Source: Armatimonadota bacterium (GTDB taxonomy: Bacteria; Armatimonadota; HRBIN16). Taken from it: a stretch of DNA of 64,000 nt. The stretch covers positions 496,001 through 560,000 of the forward strand of contig BPGT01000002.1 of the NCBI GenBank assembly GCA_026003175.1, written 5' to 3'. A program made the position numbers and the translations under genes. Positions 32,639 through 40,307 of this stretch are shown in pieces (positions within the stretch are counted from its first letter, which is position 1; every line of letters begins with the position of its first letter). The notes beneath the pieces are model-generated. The model had not been told where the DNA came from. It saw only the letters and a list, made by a program, of their open reading frames with translations, and did no database searches.

Positions 32639-32869
32639 GACAAACCTCGTTCGCGAAGTACGCTCTCATTTTGGCGCATTCGGCGAGCGATGTCAAGGCG
32701 TTTAATACGAAGAGGAACTGGTGCGCTGTGTTCTGCCTCACGTCAGCGGCTGTGATGGACTTCAATCACGGTAGATCGCCTTCCTGAAGAGGCGGACCGA
32801 TGATATTGTCTGCTCTGCGCGGACGGCTCCAGCCGAAACAGGTTGATATGCTATCAATATGGTGCCGAC

Positions 32870-32896
32870 GGCTTGGCGGGAGCCTTGCCCTCCACG
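32870..32896. repeat. Copy of dispersed element family B
   Basis: GGCTTGGCGGGAGCCTTGCC followed by CTCCACG, the most complete match to the copy at 15115. It ends 18 bases before the tandem 11-base repeats. Confidence 0.6.
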
Positions 32897-32913
32897 TACT
32901 CGTGAGAAAAATA

Positions 32914-32937
32914 TCGAGAATTTTTCGAGAATTTTTT
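32914..32937. promoter_or_regulatory. Tandem 11-bp direct repeat upstream of the nar-like promoter
   Basis: TCGAGAATTTT is repeated head to tail (32914-32924 and 32925-32937 with extra T). The unit length is about one helical turn, so two proteins could bind the same face of the DNA. It ends 21 bases before the -35 box, a usual position for an activator site or an UP element. Confidence 0.5.
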
Positions 32938-32958
32938 CCCCCAATACCTAGAAAGACC

Positions 32959-32987
32959 TTGACACCCACAAGGATTGTGCATATAAT
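32959..32987 (+). promoter_or_regulatory. Near-consensus promoter of the NarK/nar-like operon
   Basis: TTGACA (32959-32964), 17 bases, TATAAT (32982-32987): both hexamers are perfect. Transcription would start near 32994, about 64 bases before the transporter ATG. A short inverted repeat (32994-33005) lies at the start site. Confidence 0.8.
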
Positions 32988-33057
32988 ATCAAATAGATAT
33001 TCATATCCGATTATTTAGTTTTGCTGAATCCATCTAACAACTAGCTGGGGGTGCTTT

Positions 33058-34254
33058 ATGGACAATCGTGAGCCTGTCAAGGCACTAACTCTTTCCACGC
33101 TGGCTTTTGCCATCGCCTTTGCGGTGTGGGGCGTGATTGCCCCGATGGCGAAGACCTTCCAGACGAACCTGAACCTGACCGAAAAGCAGGCGTGGCTCCT
33201 TATCGCTGTGCCGGTGTTGCTGGGTTCTGTTGGGCGCATCCCGATGGGCATGTTAGCCGACCGGTTTGGGGGCAGGATAGTGTTCAGCGCGCTGTTGATT
33301 TTCGTCGCCATTCCTGCCTTCATGCTCAGCTTTGCCAGAAGCTACACCGACTTTCTGGTGTGGGCGTTGTTGCTGGGCACTGCTGGCACGTCGTTTTCCA
33401 TCGGTATCGCCTTCACTTCGAAGTGGTTTCCACCGCAGAAGCAGGGGCTCGCGCTGGGAATCTACGGGGCGGGCAACATCGGGCAGAGTTTTGCCCTGTT
33501 TGGCGTGCCTCTACTGGCAGGGCTATGGGGCTGGCAAACCACCTACCGCTTTTTTGGAGCGGTCGCGCTGCTATGGGGGTTGGTTTTCTTGCTCTTTGCC
33601 CGCAACGCGCCGGTTAAAGTGCAGCCCAAGTCCTTTGGCGCGATGGTGAAAGTGCTGACAAGCGAGCCGTTGTCGTGGTTGTTATCGTTGTTCTACTTCG
33701 TGACCTTTGGCGGATTTGTCGCACTCAGCATCGGCTTGCCCAAATTGCTCCAGGAGATTTTCCACCTGACGAAAGAGGACGCGGGCTTGCGCACCGCAGG
33801 TTTTGTGGTGCTTGCCACCGCTATGCGTCCGATAGGGGGATGGCTCAGCGATCGTTTTGGTGGAGCTCAGGTGCTGGTAGCGGTGTTCGCGGCAGCTGCA
33901 GCGTTCGCTTGGGGATTAACCTTCGAGCACATCGTGCCCTTCACCATCGGTGCGCTGGGTATCGCTGCCGCCATCGGCACGGGCAACGGCGCAGTGTTCA
34001 AACTGGTGCCCCAGTACTTCCCCAAAGATGTGGGCACGGTAACCGGTCTGGTGGGCGCAATGGGTGGATTAGGGGGCTTTTTCCCACCGATTGTACTGGG
34101 CTACATCAAGACCTACACGGGCGTCTACGATTTGGGGTTCGCGTTGTTATCGGCGTTCTGCGTTGCTTGCCTGCTGTTGAACTACCGGGTGTTCCTGCTG
34201 CCCGTGCGCAGAGCGCAGGCTGAGCAAGTGACCGCAGTGGCTTCTGGTGGGTAA
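33058..34254 (+). CDS. MFS transporter, nitrate/nitrite (NarK/NasA) type
   Basis: Twelve-helix major facilitator of 398 residues. GRIPMGMLADRFGGR is the MFS loop motif. GAGNIGQSFALFGVPLLAG and GAMGGLGGFFPPIVLG match the two nitrate-signature regions of the NarK/NRT2 family. It starts after GGGGGTGCTTT. As the first gene of the cluster it points to nitrate (or nitrite) as the substrate or product of the downstream reductase, though related oxyanions are not excluded. Confidence 0.88.
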   Translation: MDNREPVKALTLSTLAFAIAFAVWGVIAPMAKTFQTNLNLTEKQAWLLIAVPVLLGSVGRIPMGMLADRFGGRIVFSALLIFVAIPAFMLSFARSYTDFLVWALLLGTAGTSFSIGIAFTSKWFPPQKQGLALGIYGAGNIGQSFALFGVPLLAGLWGWQTTYRFFGAVALLWGLVFLLFARNAPVKVQPKSFGAMVKVLTSEPLSWLLSLFYFVTFGGFVALSIGLPKLLQEIFHLTKEDAGLRTAGFVVLATAMRPIGGWLSDRFGGAQVLVAVFAAAAAFAWGLTFEHIVPFTIGALGIAAAIGTGNGAVFKLVPQYFPKDVGTVTGLVGAMGGLGGFFPPIVLGYIKTYTGVYDLGFALLSAFCVACLLLNYRVFLLPVRRAQAEQVTAVASGG

Positions 34255-34270
34255 AAGGAGGTATCTGTGT

Positions 34271-36736
34271 ATGGCGACACGACACGCAGTTCCGGGGCGC
34301 ATCCCCAAGCCGGCTCCGCAGGAAGCAGTGCGTGTGGTGCGTACCACTGATAGTCCGAACTGTACAGGGGCGTGTGGCTGGCTGGCGACAGTAGTCAACG
34401 ATGTTATCGTGGACCTGAAGCCCGCTGCCGATTACCCCTGCGAGGAGTACAACCCGCGCGGATGCCTGCGCGGGATGTCCATGACACATATCATTTACGG
34501 TCCCGACCGCATCAGGACACCGCTCATCCGCACCGGAGAGCGCGGCGAAGGCAAATGGAAGGAAGCCTCCTGGGATGAAGCGCTGGACTACATCGCCCAG
34601 AAGATGAAACACATCATCGAAAACTACGGCGCGGACAGCATGTTGCTGTTCAATCAGGTGGTGGGAACCAGCTACGTGCAGAAAGGTGCGCAAATCCGCA
34701 TGGCGGCACTGCTGGGCATGTCCTTTGCCACCGCGTACGACTACAACGGCGACATCTCCATGGGCTTCACGCAAACACTGGGTATCGACAGCGTGGAGTG
34801 CGAGAGCAAGAGCTGGGGCTATGCTAAGTACGCTATCTTGTGGTCCTCCAACGTGTTGCAAACACGCATTCCCGACGCGCAGTTCCTGACGAGGTTTGCC
34901 AAGCAGCGTAACAACTGCAAAATCGTGGCGATAGACCCTCGCTGCAACCAGACCGTTAAGGCAGCAGACCTCTGGCTGCCCATTAACCCGGGCACTGATG
35001 GTGCGCTTGCGCTGGCGATGTGTCGGGTGCTGATAGAGGAAGGTCTGGTGGACTGGCAGTTCTTACGCACCTACACCGACTGCGCCACGCTGATTCGGCA
35101 AGACAACGGGATGCGCCTGCGTGCCAGCGACCTGGGAATAGGCAGCGAAAACGAGTTTCTGGTGTGGGACCAGACCCGACAGGACTTCTACAAGCTGCCT
35201 GCAGACACGTTGGAGCTGCCGGAGGATGTGACCCCCGCTTTCAAAGGCGAGTGGACGGTGCAAATCGAGGGCGAAGCAGTAAAGGTAGTACCCGTCTATC
35301 AACTGCTGGAGACGATGGTGATGCAGGACGAATATCGCCCCGAGCGCGTGGCGGAAATCACCGACATCCCGGCAGAGACCATTCGCCAGGTAGCGCGAGA
35401 ATACGCTACCACGAAGCCAGCGATTATCATTATCGGCATGGGCATTAACCACCGCTATCACGGCGACCTGACCATCCGCGCCATTCTGCTGTTGAGCGCG
35501 CTGGCGGGTAACTACGGTACGCCTGGCTCCGGCGTATCCATCTATTCGGGGCAGCATCACTTCCGCATCGACATCAGCGGATTCTGGTTCCCGGAAGGCA
35601 AACGCCCCAACGTGGTGCCGATGCATTACTTCGTGCTGGGCAAACCTACCGAGACCATCAACCCGAAGATTAAATACCCGAAGCACGGCTTCAAGGCGTT
35701 GTTCGTGTCGCATGGTAACCCGCTGGTGACCGAGTTCTCCAGCCTGATGAAGAAGGCGATAGACGACCTCGAGCTGTTCGTGGTGATAGACTTCTCCATG
35801 ACGCCTACCTGCGAGTACGCCGATGTGGTGTTGCCTGCGCCCACGTTCTGGGAAAAATATGACCTGGTAGCGACGGGCTGTCATCCCTATCTACAGATAC
35901 AACAACCGGTCATCCCCCCTCAATATGAGAGCAGGACAGAGCTGTGGATGGTGCAGCAACTTATCAAGCGCGTGGCTCCAGAGTTATATCCCTACTTCGA
36001 CCTCACCGAATTGGACGCCATCCGCATCCTGCTGGAAACGGCGGGCAAAGAGACTGAGGGCATCACCGTAGAGCAGCTTTTGCAGGGTCCCGTACGCCTC
36101 AACGTGCCAGACCCCGAAATCGGGTTGGACGAGCAGCTACTGCACAAGAAGCCCTTCCCTCCTCGTGCCTATCCGTTCAGGCTGGAGCAGCAGAAGGAGT
36201 ACCACAAGACGGGGCGCATGGAGTTCTACAAGGAGGAACCGATTTACCAGCGAATGGGCGAGGCGCTACCCGTTTTCAAGCCCGCGTTCAGTCATCTGCC
36301 CGAGGAGGACCAGAGGTTGCCCCTGTGCATCGTCACGCCGCACTCCAAGTGGCGGGTGCACTCTACCCACAGCAACAACCCGCTGTTGCTTAACGTGAAT
36401 CGCAAGCCGGTGGTGGAGATAAACCCGCTGGATGCCGCCGCGCGCGGTATCCAGGACGGCGACCTCGTGGAGGTTTTCAGCAACTACGGCTCTTATCGCC
36501 TATGGGCGCTGGTGACCGAAACCATCAAGCCCGGTGTGGTATGTGTGGACCACGGATGGTGGGACCGCTATCTCGCCGGAGGCAAATACCACAGCGTGCA
36601 TACACACCAGAAGATTAAGCCCACGCATGAGGCGTACTTCCTTCCGGCGGTGTACGCGCCCGGACAACACTGGAAGGACACCCGCGTGGACGTGAGAAAG
36701 GTGGGGAACAATGGCGCGACTGGCAATGTTGATTGA
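34271..36736 (+). CDS. NarG-like molybdopterin oxidoreductase, catalytic subunit (short form)
   Basis: Mo-bisPGD enzyme of the DMSO reductase superfamily, type II branch. ATG 34271 follows AAAGGAGG at eight bases. In the 821-residue protein the FS0 region reads Asp27-x3-Cys31-x3-Cys35-x29-Cys65 (PNCTGACGW ... NPRGCLRG), closely like NarG except that the first ligand, His in NarG, is Asp. AYDYNGD gives Asp161 at the position of the NarG molybdenum ligand, and WSSNVLQTRIPDAQF is also NarG-like. NarG has about 1,240 residues, so this is much shorter. I see no Tat signal, so the site is probably cytoplasmic. It overlaps the next gene by 26 bases. Nitrate is the likely substrate, from context. Confidence 0.86.
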   Translation: MATRHAVPGRIPKPAPQEAVRVVRTTDSPNCTGACGWLATVVNDVIVDLKPAADYPCEEYNPRGCLRGMSMTHIIYGPDRIRTPLIRTGERGEGKWKEASWDEALDYIAQKMKHIIENYGADSMLLFNQVVGTSYVQKGAQIRMAALLGMSFATAYDYNGDISMGFTQTLGIDSVECESKSWGYAKYAILWSSNVLQTRIPDAQFLTRFAKQRNNCKIVAIDPRCNQTVKAADLWLPINPGTDGALALAMCRVLIEEGLVDWQFLRTYTDCATLIRQDNGMRLRASDLGIGSENEFLVWDQTRQDFYKLPADTLELPEDVTPAFKGEWTVQIEGEAVKVVPVYQLLETMVMQDEYRPERVAEITDIPAETIRQVAREYATTKPAIIIIGMGINHRYHGDLTIRAILLLSALAGNYGTPGSGVSIYSGQHHFRIDISGFWFPEGKRPNVVPMHYFVLGKPTETINPKIKYPKHGFKALFVSHGNPLVTEFSSLMKKAIDDLELFVVIDFSMTPTCEYADVVLPAPTFWEKYDLVATGCHPYLQIQQPVIPPQYESRTELWMVQQLIKRVAPELYPYFDLTELDAIRILLETAGKETEGITVEQLLQGPVRLNVPDPEIGLDEQLLHKKPFPPRAYPFRLEQQKEYHKTGRMEFYKEEPIYQRMGEALPVFKPAFSHLPEEDQRLPLCIVTPHSKWRVHSTHSNNPLLLNVNRKPVVEINPLDAAARGIQDGDLVEVFSNYGSYRLWALVTETIKPGVVCVDHGWWDRYLAGGKYHSVHTHQKIKPTHEAYFLPAVYAPGQHWKDTRVDVRKVGNNGATGNVD

Positions 36737-38597
36737 CCTCACGCGGTGCATCGGTTGCGATTCCTGCACCCTTGCCTGCAAACAGGAGAACGGCACGCCG
36801 ATGGATGTGTTCTTCGCGCGTGTACTGAACGTGGAGGCGGGGACCTATCCCCTCGTGAAGCGCATTTACATTCCGGTTCTATGTAACCATTGTGAAAACC
36901 CGGCGTGCCTCAAAGCCTGTCCCAACAAGGCGATTTTCCGCCGCGAGGACGGCATTGTGCTGATAGACCAGGACAGATGTCGTGGTGCGGGAGCCTGCGT
37001 GTCCGCATGCCCCTACGGCAACATCATTTTGACTGACCGCGACCGCTGGTACCTGCCCGATGACCGGGCATACGAGCGCGATTACGTCCGACCGCGCCTG
37101 AAGGAGCAGGTTGCTCGTAAATGCACTTTTTGCGCGCACCGCGTAGACGAGGGACTGGAACCCGCGTGTGTGGTGGCGTGCCCGACTACTGCCCGCATCT
37201 TCGGCGATGTGGAAGACCCGAACAGTAGGATTTCGCAGTACATCGCTGAGCAACGACAGACAACGGGACGTGAGCCGTTCAAGCTGCTTCCCGAAGCGCA
37301 AACGCAGCCCGCCAACATGTATCTGGGCACGATGGCAAAGCAGGAGGTGAGCACGCTGAGCGCGCCTTCCGCGCCTTCGGAGCATCGGGTGGAGATGGGA
37401 CAACAGCGCGAACCGGAACGTGCAGGTGTAATGGCGGGCGCAGCGCGGCTGTTCGCCAAACTTACCGCCCTGTGGCTGTTTATCATGGTGCTCCTGTTCG
37501 TCTTGCAGGTAGTTGCTCAGCAAAACGACTCGGCTCCCACCCCGGCAGAACTATACTCCGATTCTTCCTGCGCGGGTTGCCACGGACCGACTGCGATGGG
37601 TGGCCTGGGACCGCCTCTGGCGGAGACGAAGCGTTCACTGGAGGAGTTTAAAAAGATAGTGCGAGAAGGGCGAGGCATGATGCCCGCCACACCACCTTCG
37701 GAGATGCCCGACGAGGAGATAGCGGTCATCCACGATTTTGTGCAGAAGACAAAGCTTGACCCTTCGCAAGTTCCAGTCTCCTACAAAATCGGGCAGTGGC
37801 TGAGCACTACCCACGTCACAGTGATATTTGCCGTCATCAGCCTTGTGTGGCTGGTGCTGACCCTGCGTGTGCTGTGGTACTGGGTGGACTGCGCGGGCTG
37901 GAAGAACCTGAAGCCCTATCTGCGCAAATTCGGCTACGGCAGGGCGCTGGGGGTGTTCCTGCGATCCCTTATCGTGGACGGATTGCTCGTCGCGCACCTG
38001 TGGCGCAGGGACAGATTCCGCTGGATGATGCACGCGTTCATGCTTTACGGTTTCCTTGCGCTGGGATTGTCGGATATCCTGATGAGCATCTTCAATCCCA
38101 CGCGCGGAACCCTGCCCATCACGCATCCGCTAAAGCTGCTGCCCAATCTGGCGGGGTTGGCGATACTGGCAGGTATTGTATATGTGCGCTATCGCTACAG
38201 CGAGGACCCCTATATCGATAACGGACTCACCCTGAGCAGAGACTACACCTTCCTGAGCCTGCTCACGTGGACGATACTGACGGGCTTTCTGGTGGAGGGG
38301 CTGGGCTATGCGGGAGCGTATGTGTTCATCCAGCCCGCCTATATCCTGCATCTGTCTCTGGTAGCGGCGTTGTTCCTGACCGCGCCCTTCACGCGCTTCC
38401 AGCACGCCTTTCTCGTGCCCGTGCTAATGGCGCTCACGAAGGTCACCTCGCAGGTAGCGTACAGCGGTGTGGAACTGGGCTTTCTGAGCGAGCCTTCGCC
38501 GGGGCGACATCACAAGTCGGAGCGAATAGCGCAGGATGTCCTGCAGCATGTCGCACCGGATCTCGCCGGCAAATTCCGATTGCGATACTATCCGTAG
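36711..38597 (+). CDS. Fusion of NarH-like Fe-S subunit, cytochrome c domain and NarI-like membrane anchor
   Basis: One 628-residue chain that seems to join three electron carriers. Residues 1-210: four-cluster ferredoxin domain (CIGCDSCTLAC, CNHCENPACLKACP, CTFCAHRVDEG). The third motif reads Cys90-Arg-Gly-Ala-Gly-Ala-Cys96, lacking one Cys exactly where NarH has Trp, so one cluster is probably [3Fe-4S]. About 243-264: a membrane helix. About 275-355: a c-type cytochrome with Cys287-Ala-Gly-Cys290-His291 and likely Met ligands (GRGMMPA). 365-600: several membrane helices with paired His (MMHAFMLYG, LHLSLVAALFL, RFQHAFL) like NarI/HdrE. This topology puts the clusters inside and the heme c outside. 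Ribosome-binding site GGTGGGG, overlapping the Mo subunit. Confidence 0.85.
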   Translation: MARLAMLIDLTRCIGCDSCTLACKQENGTPMDVFFARVLNVEAGTYPLVKRIYIPVLCNHCENPACLKACPNKAIFRREDGIVLIDQDRCRGAGACVSACPYGNIILTDRDRWYLPDDRAYERDYVRPRLKEQVARKCTFCAHRVDEGLEPACVVACPTTARIFGDVEDPNSRISQYIAEQRQTTGREPFKLLPEAQTQPANMYLGTMAKQEVSTLSAPSAPSEHRVEMGQQREPERAGVMAGAARLFAKLTALWLFIMVLLFVLQVVAQQNDSAPTPAELYSDSSCAGCHGPTAMGGLGPPLAETKRSLEEFKKIVREGRGMMPATPPSEMPDEEIAVIHDFVQKTKLDPSQVPVSYKIGQWLSTTHVTVIFAVISLVWLVLTLRVLWYWVDCAGWKNLKPYLRKFGYGRALGVFLRSLIVDGLLVAHLWRRDRFRWMMHAFMLYGFLALGLSDILMSIFNPTRGTLPITHPLKLLPNLAGLAILAGIVYVRYRYSEDPYIDNGLTLSRDYTFLSLLTWTILTGFLVEGLGYAGAYVFIQPAYILHLSLVAALFLTAPFTRFQHAFLVPVLMALTKVTSQVAYSGVELGFLSEPSPGRHHKSERIAQDVLQHVAPDLAGKFRLRYYP

Positions 38598-38608
38598 GAG
38601 GCAAGCCG

Positions 38609-39115
38609 ATGAGAAGTAATGGTCTGGAATATCAGGAACAGCAACCGGATTCCCCCATCCGGCGCAGGGTACTGAGCTGGCTGGTGGGGTTGATCAATCT
38701 AGGGGTAATAGCGGGCTTTATTGCGCCGGTGCTGGGGTTCATCAGCTCGCCTACCCGCCGACGACGAGAGCAGGGAGAGTGGGTGCCGGTACTGAACGCC
38801 CATGAACTGAAGCCCGGCGAAACCAGAGCGGTGACGTACTCGTTGATGGTGAAAGACGGCTACATGACCGCCGAGCACCGCTACAGTGTTTACCTGTACC
38901 ACCGAAGCGACGGCACTATCCTAGCGTTTGACCCTTCCTGCCCGCATCTAGGTTGCCGGGTGGAGTTCAAAGAGCGCAAGCAGCGCTATGTGTGTCCTTG
39001 TCACGGTGGAGTATTTGACACCGAAGGCAATCTGGTCTCCGGTCCGCCTCCAACCGGATTAACGAAGTTGCCTGCGCGTGTGGATGGAGGCAAAATCTGG
39101 ATACAGAGGGTGTAG
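38609..39115 (+). CDS. Rieske [2Fe-2S] protein
   Basis: Quinol-oxidising iron-sulfur protein of a bc-type complex, 168 residues. The start is set by TAGGAGG nine bases before ATG; a longer in-frame stretch upstream lies inside the previous gene. A membrane anchor at about 22-45 (WLVGLINLGVIAGFIAPVLGF) precedes the Rieske fold with Cys111-Pro-His113-Leu-Gly-Cys116 and Cys129-Pro-Cys131-His132-Gly-Gly, so both cluster His and the disulfide pair are present. It lies 11 bases after the fusion gene. Confidence 0.95.
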   Translation: MRSNGLEYQEQQPDSPIRRRVLSWLVGLINLGVIAGFIAPVLGFISSPTRRRREQGEWVPVLNAHELKPGETRAVTYSLMVKDGYMTAEHRYSVYLYHRSDGTILAFDPSCPHLGCRVEFKERKQRYVCPCHGGVFDTEGNLVSGPPPTGLTKLPARVDGGKIWIQRV

Positions 39116-39119
39116 GACA

Positions 39120-40307
39120 ATGGCGCACCTGATAGAGAAAACTACCGAGAAACCGACGCCTCGCTCGGATGGCAAGCCTGAGACAGGCGTGGAACTGTCC
39201 CGCCAGACGGGGTGGGTTGGTGCAGTGCGCGACTGGATAGAAGAGCGCACCGGATTGTTCGGCTTTATCAAACACCATCTGGACGAGCCGATGCCTCCAG
39301 GCGTGGGGTGGTGGCAAACGCTGGGCAATCTACTGCTCACGCTACTCATTTTCCAGTTCATTACCGGTTTCGCGCTGGCGATGTTCTACGCGCCCACACC
39401 CGACCACGCGCACGAGAGCGTGAAGCACATCACCGAGAACGTGCCACTGGGAGCGTTCATTCGCGGATTGCACCACTGGGGATCTTCGTTCATTATGCTG
39501 GTAGTGGTGCTGCACATCCTGCGCGTGTTCTTCTGGGGGGCTTATAAGAAGCCGCGCGAACTCACGTGGCTGGTCGGCGTTGCCATCTTTCAGGTGATAC
39601 TGGCGTTCGCCTTCACCGGCTACCTGCTGATTTGGGACCAGAAGGCGTACTGGGCGACGGTAGTAGGCACGCGATTCGCCAGCACCGTGCCCATTATCGG
39701 CGAGTGGCTAATGCGATTCCTGCGTGGCGGTAAAGAGGTAGGAGCGCTGACGCTCACCCGTTTCTACGCCATCCACATCATGCTATTACCGGTGGCGCTG
39801 GTGCTGCTGACCGCGGCGCATCTGTATCTGGTTCGGCGGTTGCACATCTCCGGTCCGGTGATTCCTCAGAAGGGTACCCCGCAGCCGTTCTATCCATACC
39901 AGCTGTTCCGTGACGCGGTGGTGGTGCTGGTGGGCATGGGGTTGTTGATGACCTGTGCTCTGCTGTTCAAGCCGCCACTGTACCCTGTCGCCGACCCATC
40001 GGGCACGGCGTTCACCCCACGTCCAGAATGGTACTTTCTGGGCTTGTATGAACTGTTGAAGCTAATGCCGCCCAAACTCGAAGTTCTTGGCACGGTGGTA
40101 ATACCCGGTCTGGTGGCAATCGGCATGATATTGCTGCCGTGGCTGGACCGCTCGCCGTCGCGTCACCCTGCGTATCGTAAGTGGGTGATTGACGTAGGGC
40201 TGATTATTATCTTCCTGATAGGCACGCTCACGTTGAAGGGCATCCTGTCCGAGCCGCCAACGCCGCCGCCTGCGCAGGTTTCTTCCACGACATCGGGTTC
40301 GCGATAG
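39120..40307 (+). CDS. Cytochrome b of a bc-type quinol-oxidising complex
   Basis: Membrane diheme subunit, 395 residues. ATG 39120 comes four bases after the Rieske stop. The two heme-b ligand pairs are visible as HHWGSSFIMLVVVLHILR and AIHIMLLPVALVLLTAAHLY. TPRPEWYFLGLYELLK contains the PEWY motif of the Qo site. N-terminal (b6-like) and C-terminal (subunit IV-like) parts are in one chain. No separate cytochrome c1 gene follows; the heme c domain of the fusion two genes upstream could accept the Rieske electron. Pro-rich C-terminal tail. Confidence 0.95.
   Translation: MAHLIEKTTEKPTPRSDGKPETGVELSRQTGWVGAVRDWIEERTGLFGFIKHHLDEPMPPGVGWWQTLGNLLLTLLIFQFITGFALAMFYAPTPDHAHESVKHITENVPLGAFIRGLHHWGSSFIMLVVVLHILRVFFWGAYKKPRELTWLVGVAIFQVILAFAFTGYLLIWDQKAYWATVVGTRFASTVPIIGEWLMRFLRGGKEVGALTLTRFYAIHIMLLPVALVLLTAAHLYLVRRLHISGPVIPQKGTPQPFYPYQLFRDAVVVLVGMGLLMTCALLFKPPLYPVADPSGTAFTPRPEWYFLGLYELLKLMPPKLEVLGTVVIPGLVAIGMILLPWLDRSPSRHPAYRKWVIDVGLIIIFLIGTLTLKGILSEPPTPPPAQVSSTTSGSR

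Follow-up and report, generated by a model that had tools for sequence, protein, structure and literature searches.

A 64,000-nucleotide (nt) window, the whole stretch of DNA analyzed here, was taken from the 4.1 Mb genome of an Armatimonadota bacterium (contig BPGT01000002.1, positions 496,001–560,000). It contains an operon of five genes, all on the + strand, that appears to encode a respiratory reductase together with its electron supply. The first gene (33058..34254) encodes a NarK-type nitrate/nitrite transporter of the major facilitator superfamily (MFS; 398 amino acids (aa)), assigned with the model TIGR00886 and from aligned NarK arginines. The second (34271..36736) encodes the catalytic molybdenum (Mo) subunit, of the bis(pyranopterin guanine dinucleotide) (bisPGD) type, with 821 aa from a conserved ATG, identified by profile matches, alignment and a tree. 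The third (36711..38597) encodes a 628-aa fusion of iron-sulfur (FeS), heme c and NarI-like parts, recognized by profile matches, motifs and a fold match. The last two encode a 168-aa Rieske [2Fe-2S] protein (38609..39115; PF00355) with the motifs CPHLGC and CPCHGG, and a 395-aa cytochrome b (39120..40307), in which b6 and subunit IV form a single chain, identified by its heme His residues and PEWY motif. The tight, co-directional spacing described in an initial annotation of this DNA was found again: in operon order, 16 nt lie between the first two genes, the second and third overlap by 26 nt, and the last two gaps measure 11 nt and 4 nt.

The genome search that the initial annotation had proposed for this gene order found Mo subunit, FeS, heme c-NarI, Rieske and cytochrome b genes (called the module below) in that order and on one strand at 44 loci, in ca. 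32 distinct genome bins after duplicates were removed. Such recurrence lies far beyond chance. The FeS and heme c-NarI part is encoded in 37 of the 291 Armatimonadota genomes, as one gene in some and as two in many others – the fusion noted initially is present here and is not obligatory. At one exceptional locus (L083/L104) the Mo gene is ca. 9 kb away from the cytochrome b gene. The nearest named relative of the Mo subunit is from the bin HRbin16 (97% identity). Relatives in Bacillota have the order Mo-FeS-NarI, with no heme c on NarI and no adjacent Rieske/cytochrome b pair, and the cytochrome b genes elsewhere in Bacillota and Chloroflexi genomes show only 27–51% identity. Two module copies (L109 and L120), with Mo subunits 73–76% identical to that of the window, are filed under bins named "Methanoregulaceae archaeon" and "Acidobacteria", labels that are most likely binning errors. 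No description of the module was found in the literature on Armatimonadota, subscription papers being outside the reach of the search.

The distribution of heme c among these proteins is the strongest new evidence for how they may be wired together. The Rieske cluster ligands (CxHLGC and CPCHGG) are invariant in 11 homologues. The module cytochrome b conserves four heme His (H-x13-H and H-x14-H) and PEWY, as expected from the quinol oxidation (Qo) site of a bc-type module that the initial annotation had pointed out, and it has no CxxCH heme c motif. Across the module loci, there are no CxxCH motifs in any cytochrome b and one or two in every heme c-NarI protein. The cluster also has no separate cytochrome c1, as had been noted, the heme c being on the NarI-like protein. 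Outside the module, 8 of the 9 cytochromes b sampled from the same phylum carry their own C-terminal heme c (L149, L150–L154, L156, and L140 from a second complex in the source genome); the other, L155 (42% identity), does not. One of the eight, L149, belongs to an extra Rieske/cytochrome b pair in genome G140 and is 65% identical to the cytochrome b of the window. In the cytochrome b tree, the module proteins and L149 are grouped (support 98/98) inside the heme-c-bearing lineages. Heme c on NarI and an adjacent Rieske/cytochrome b pair thus appear to go together. A transplant of the heme c domain from the C-terminus of cytochrome b to the fusion was considered and set aside, as the similarity between them is only weak (E about 1e-3).

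The source genome also holds a second bc complex, only 40% identical to that of the module, and the idea that the operon encodes the cell's only complex III was rejected for this reason. The second complex (L140:7859-10629, G000:C3) consists of a Rieske protein and a 755-aa cytochrome b that has PDFY in place of PEWY and is extended by a fused region containing 15 CxxCH motifs. Beside it is encoded a 686-aa protein with 11 CxxCH motifs and a cytochrome b561-type domain.

The fusion protein begins with an ArrB/PsrB-like FeS domain (aa 1 to ca. 205), in which one cluster Cys is replaced by Ala93, followed by a transmembrane (TM) helix (aa ca. 245–265), the heme c site CAGCH (aa 287–291) and the NarI-like membrane domain (aa ca. 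360–588). The FeS domain scored 180 bits against the ArrB model, 172 against TtrB and 80.6 against NarH (cutoff 524), and its best solved matches are ArrB and PsrB, so the label NarH given to it initially does not hold. One FeS motif reads C-x2-A/T-x2-C-x3-C in the module and Bacillota proteins, without the second Cys, and the full set of Cys is present in Chloroflexi. Lacking this Cys, as NarH does, the FeS part is predicted to hold a [3Fe-4S] cluster. The membrane domain matches the fold of NarI (1q16_C; Z 11.9, with 180–182 residues aligned) within the well-predicted region of the model, the top fold match being EtfD of M. smegmatis (Z 12.7). Three NarI heme ligands are kept, with H441, H547 and H565 corresponding to NarI H56, H187 and H205. 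In the split heme c-NarI proteins, a signal-like segment precedes the heme c; the fused versions have the TM helix there instead. From this, the heme c is predicted to be outside the membrane and the FeS domain inside. Export signals are absent from both the Mo and the FeS parts.

The start of the Mo subunit was set by its homologues at ATG 34271 (MATRHAVPGR), 24 nt downstream of a GTG at 34247. By far the best curated model for this protein is TIGR03479, the alpha subunit of type II dimethyl sulfoxide (DMSO) reductases, at 505.6 bits against a cutoff of 984.75. The score against the narG model TIGR01580 was 265.8 bits against a cutoff of 1084, and the protein has 821 aa rather than the ca. 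1230 aa of NarG. By profile, the solved proteins closest to it are PcrA (440 bits), EbdA (273 bits) and NarG (264 bits). In a maximum likelihood tree of 29 sequences, the module proteins clustered with those of Bacillota and Chloroflexi (99/97), and NarG, PcrA, EbdA and haloarchaeal Nar made up the sister group (99/96). The two groups were joined with support of 100/99, leaving DmsA and NapA outside. This sister placement is provisional because the tree was midpoint-rooted, included PcrA and EbdA as partial sequences only, and had no SerA, ClrA, DdhA or nitrite oxidoreductase (NXR). With these scores and the tree, the assignment of the proteins to NarG and NarH was rejected; of the type II placement implied by the initial annotation, the kinship stands, as a provisional sister lineage, and membership among the classical enzymes is not supported. 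A tree position outside the type II branch, which the initial annotation had named as damaging to its proposal, was therefore found by half. The Mo subunit is thus provisionally a separate lineage, sister to the classical type II enzymes.

Within this lineage, the Mo-ligand Asp is invariant (residue 161 of the 821-aa protein, aligned with PcrA D170 and NarG D222), and the window protein has the FS0 cluster motif D-x3-C-x3-C-x29-C. Every Armatimonadota and Bacillota sequence has Asp as the first FS0 ligand, compared with Cys in Chloroflexi and His in NarG, and Asp is a third type of residue at this His/Cys position. The Armatimonadota and Bacillota Mo proteins have no twin-arginine translocation (Tat) leader, while twin-arginine leaders are present on the Chloroflexi relatives, and at one Chloroflexi locus (L127) the FeS gene is followed by a gene with NrfD-like sequence, a call made by eye. 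Since the Chloroflexi relatives have Tat signals, the cytoplasmic, NarI-anchored layout looks convergent with NarGHI and seems to have evolved independently of it; the NarGHI layout would then possibly have evolved twice. The Chloroflexi relatives (L124:9833-13050 and L127:5572-10375) are a candidate outgroup for the change of membrane side in this lineage. No NarJ/TorD chaperone gene (PF02613) was found in the cluster, in the source genome or in 8 of the 11 other module genomes; control genomes such as those of E. coli and B. subtilis gave matches. The lack of a NarJ-like chaperone reported initially for the cluster thus extends, at the sensitivity of PF02613, to the whole source genome.

The five proteins can be read, with moderate confidence, as a hard-wired anaerobic respiratory segment that would reduce nitrate, in which electrons would pass from Rieske/cytochrome b through heme c and the NarI-like domain to the FeS domain and the Mo subunit. 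Menaquinol would be oxidized at the Qo site of the Rieske/cytochrome b pair, and one electron would return through the b hemes in a Q cycle. The other would be passed by the Rieske center to the heme c of the fusion, a domain that would stand in for cytochrome c1/f, and from there would travel inward across the membrane by way of the heme b domain of the NarI-like part. It would then follow the fused ArrB/PsrB-like FeS chain to the cytoplasmic Mo-bisPGD subunit, where nitrate would be reduced to nitrite, with NarK moving nitrate and nitrite. The presence of heme c on NarI, and its absence from cytochrome b, throughout the module makes this proposed route well supported on comparative grounds. 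Together with the gene order and the cytochrome b tree, it is in keeping with the idea in the initial annotation that a bc-type pair feeds a NarI-anchored reductase through heme c. The electron path, the physical complex it implies, the substrate and the direction of operation are predictions made from the sequences. In the textbook NarGHI enzyme, electrons come straight from quinol and ca. 2 charges are moved per nitrate. Because both the Q cycle and the NarI-type redox arm would move negative charge inward, ca. 4 charges per nitrate would be expected here.

Nitrate is the likely substrate, judging from the NarK gene, the genes that neighbor homologues and the enrichment of NrfA. The transporter scored 244 bits against TIGR00886, below the cutoff of 312. 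Its R60 and R257 align with the substrate-binding R89 and R305 of E. coli NarK, and the GxGN and GGxGGF motifs are both kept, which agrees with the nitrate signature seen initially. NarK-type MFS genes are found near the module at many other loci, and genes near homologues include those for a SLAC1-type anion channel, hemerythrin/RIC, Hcp and HPP, as well as molybdenum cofactor genes. NrfA-family matches were found in 18 of the 37 module genomes and in 44 of the 254 others (p=6e-5, without phylogenetic correction); those in the source genus are weaker, and members that lack the module have them too. NirK and NosZ (TIGR02376 and TIGR04246) are absent from all module genomes, so there is no support for denitrification beyond nitrite. 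Canonical narG was found in none of the 37 module genomes. Mutual exclusion between the module and canonical narG was considered and dropped, since only 10 genomes have narG and the zero overlap has no power (p=0.62). Acididesulfobacillus acetoxydans was likewise discarded as a source of experimental evidence, as its NarG (DEACI_1355) is 52% identical to that of E. coli and is therefore canonical (PMC10949509).

The same wiring could instead serve another oxyanion – chlorate/perchlorate, selenate, iodate or arsenate – with the NarK-type carriers moving that ion or its product. The closest solved relative by profile is PcrA rather than NarG, the FeS part is ArrB-like, and a more distant homologue (L035, 33%) adjoins a chlorite-dismutase gene. 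The transporter in the operon with both nitrate-binding arginines and the nitrogen-oxide genes near homologues argue for nitrate, and no chlorite-dismutase-like gene was noticed beside the module; another oxyanion is judged improbable. Less probable still is operation in reverse, in which the Mo subunit would oxidize nitrite or some other donor, electrons would leave through hemes b and c, and the Rieske/cytochrome b pair would drive reverse transport to quinone. The parts would fit, since Nitrobacter-type NXR has, in addition to NarG and NarI homologues, a NarC-like cytochrome on the way to complex III or IV (PMC7694296). Related enzymes are found, however, in the anaerobes Desulfosporosinus and Peptococcaceae, two of them beside Hcp, and NrfA-family genes are commoner in module genomes than in others, not rarer. 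The Mo subunit also did not group with NarG, in a tree that contained no NXR sequence.

Several points weigh against the hard-wired route to nitrate. No homologue has a His at the position of H66, which in NarI is the second ligand to the outer heme bD. Without it, electrons would have to get from heme c to the inner heme by way of an unusual heme ligand or over a longer distance. Either another coordination holds the outer heme, or the protein has a single heme. In the AlphaFold model of the fusion, the FeS and heme c regions are poorly predicted; a structure for the whole fusion was set aside for its low confidence outside the membrane part, and Foldseek/VIA supports only the NarI-like fold. 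Genome G104 (L078/L125) encodes a heme c-NarI part with no adjacent Rieske/cytochrome b pair and with a SLAC1-type channel next to it, and may be an intermediate. In G004, a genome of the same genus, the corresponding place lacks the NarK gene, the Mo gene and almost the entire fusion gene (window positions 32698-38437), the deletion site being around 8752-8787 in L148 (G004:C1:552000-571000), and the Rieske and cytochrome b genes are intact despite the loss of the reductase. Since the Mo subunit falls outside the sampled clades of characterized nitrate reductases, the substrate is read from context alone, and the literature search found biochemical or expression data for no homologue.

The G004 pair has ca. 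94% DNA identity, compared to 81% for the upstream flank, a hint that the region may be exchanged between species. By this comparison, a Rieske/cytochrome b pair can persist for a while after the reductase is lost. The initial annotation had regarded conservation of the pair apart from the reductase as damaging to its proposal; such conservation was found only marginally, in the pair kept by G004 and in the extra pair of G140 with its own heme c. The G004 deletion would also fit two linked and separable quinol oxidizers, with the NarI-like part oxidizing quinol itself, the heme c acting as a side exit or docking site, and the Rieske/cytochrome b pair serving other c-type acceptors. In line with this, the Bacillota orthologues without heme c or an adjacent pair presumably have a quinol-fed core, and NarC of Thermus, a periplasmic cytochrome that binds NarI, has been proposed to feed other acceptors (PMC7694296). 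Separable oxidizers would not, however, lead one to expect that the pair has lost its own heme c, and that heme c is found on NarI, at every locus with an adjacent pair. The absence of the H66 ligand beside the outer quinol site and the separate bc complex in the source genome also argue against them, and this alternative is judged rather unlikely.

The proposed hard-wired segment has partial precedents in haloarchaeal Nar and in Nar1 of Streptomyces. Rieske and cytochrome b genes in haloarchaeal nar clusters, mentioned in the initial annotation, were seen in the comparators L037, L038 and L162. Nitrate reduction driven by a Q cycle has been proposed for such operons (PMC2483277), and haloarchaeal Nar with Rieske/cytochrome b is antimycin-sensitive, as cited in PMC4683180. 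In Haloferax mediterranei (narB for the Rieske protein, narC for cytochrome b, and narGH), as in the module, a Rieske/cytochrome b pair is encoded together with a Mo enzyme that belongs to the type II group in its wider sense. Unlike the module, haloarchaeal Nar has a Tat-type leader, an outward-facing Mo subunit, an ethylbenzene-dehydrogenase-like gamma subunit and a TorD-type chaperone gene. Its NarC has PDWFL and is separated from the module cytochrome b by a very long branch; because NarC has PDW and is only distantly related, the two pairings with Rieske/cytochrome b appear to be independent.

Nar1 of Streptomyces coelicolor, like the module, has a NarI-type enzyme that is thought to draw its electrons from a bcc complex, through the heme c of that complex. 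Nar1 depends on the bcc complex and co-purifies with it, and transfer from the QcrC heme c to NarI heme bD has been proposed for Nar1 with bcc-aa3 (PMC7931247). Its bcc genes are elsewhere in the genome and are shared with the oxidase, and the reductase is a canonical NarGHJI. The narCGHJI operon of Thermus resembles the module in having periplasmic c-type heme attached to the NarI of a nitrate reductase (PMC7694296). It differs in that NarC is a separate diheme protein and a fourth subunit, that NarJ is present, and that the complex III genes are outside the operon, complex III being reported as inhibited under these conditions. With NarGHI itself, the module shares a predicted cytoplasmic Mo subunit, an FeS subunit with one cluster Cys replaced, a NarI-family anchor and a linked NarK. 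It differs in its 821-aa Mo subunit, which belongs to a separate lineage and has Asp in place of the FS0 His, its ArrB/PsrB-like FeS domain, its extra heme c, its lack of NarJ and the missing NarI heme ligand. PcrAB and the classical type II enzymes include the closest solved Mo structures and keep the Mo-ligand Asp, and the module is provisionally sister to them rather than within them, with no Tat signal and with a NarI-type anchor.

Coupling between a bc complex and nitrate reductase has been proposed in haloarchaea, Methanoperedens and Streptomyces. In those systems the link is either unknown or soluble, or else an oxidase shares it. In the module it appears to be covalent and genetically fixed. 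On the sequences alone, the module is a conserved and widespread variant of the bc-coupled oxyanion reductases on a separate Mo lineage. Evolutionary intermediates seem to be visible, with neither heme c nor an adjacent pair in Bacillota, heme c only in G104, and both in Armatimonadota. A Q cycle stacked with a NarI-type redox arm in one complex is a testable idea, and if it is true, the energy gain per nitrate could double relative to the textbook enzyme. A fuller version is tentative, at somewhat less than an even chance: the module would encode a quinol-nitrate reductase that exists only as a supercomplex, with the c1/f function moved onto a NarI-type anchor and with the Q cycle and NarI arm acting in series to move ca. 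4 charges per nitrate, and the Mo lineage, with its Asp-ligated FS0, would have come from a Tat-exported, NrfD-anchored ancestor.

The operon is preceded by a sigma-70-type promoter on the + strand (TTGACA-N17-TATAAT, 32959..32987) that matches the consensus at 12 of 12 positions. The near-perfect promoter reported initially is thus present, and two other species (L040 and L041) keep both hexamers in front of the corresponding gene, although much of the surrounding upstream region has diverged. An FNR-like palindrome at ca. 32842-32856, upstream of the promoter, was dropped as a candidate because it is not kept in those species. A cobalamin adenosyltransferase gene on the opposite strand and, downstream, a nuclease gene flank the operon.

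Other genes of potential interest are found elsewhere in the source genome and beside module copies. The source genome encodes a TtrAB-like pair with a 1080-aa Mo subunit (L043:4701-8875) and a 728-aa DmsA/formate-dehydrogenase-like protein that is common to the whole genus (L042:8127-10313). A second nitrate-type cluster is located beside the module at L039:221-8883, L096, L110, L120 and L126, and encodes a NasC-like Mo protein of ca. 730–750 aa, a 4Fe-4S protein, a Rieske protein and, in some cases, a NarK-type MFS transporter. In Armatimonadota, a gene for a tyrosine-decarboxylase-like pyridoxal phosphate (PLP) enzyme repeatedly adjoins the module (L106:16136-18019, L079:11619-13559 and L082:1655-3607).

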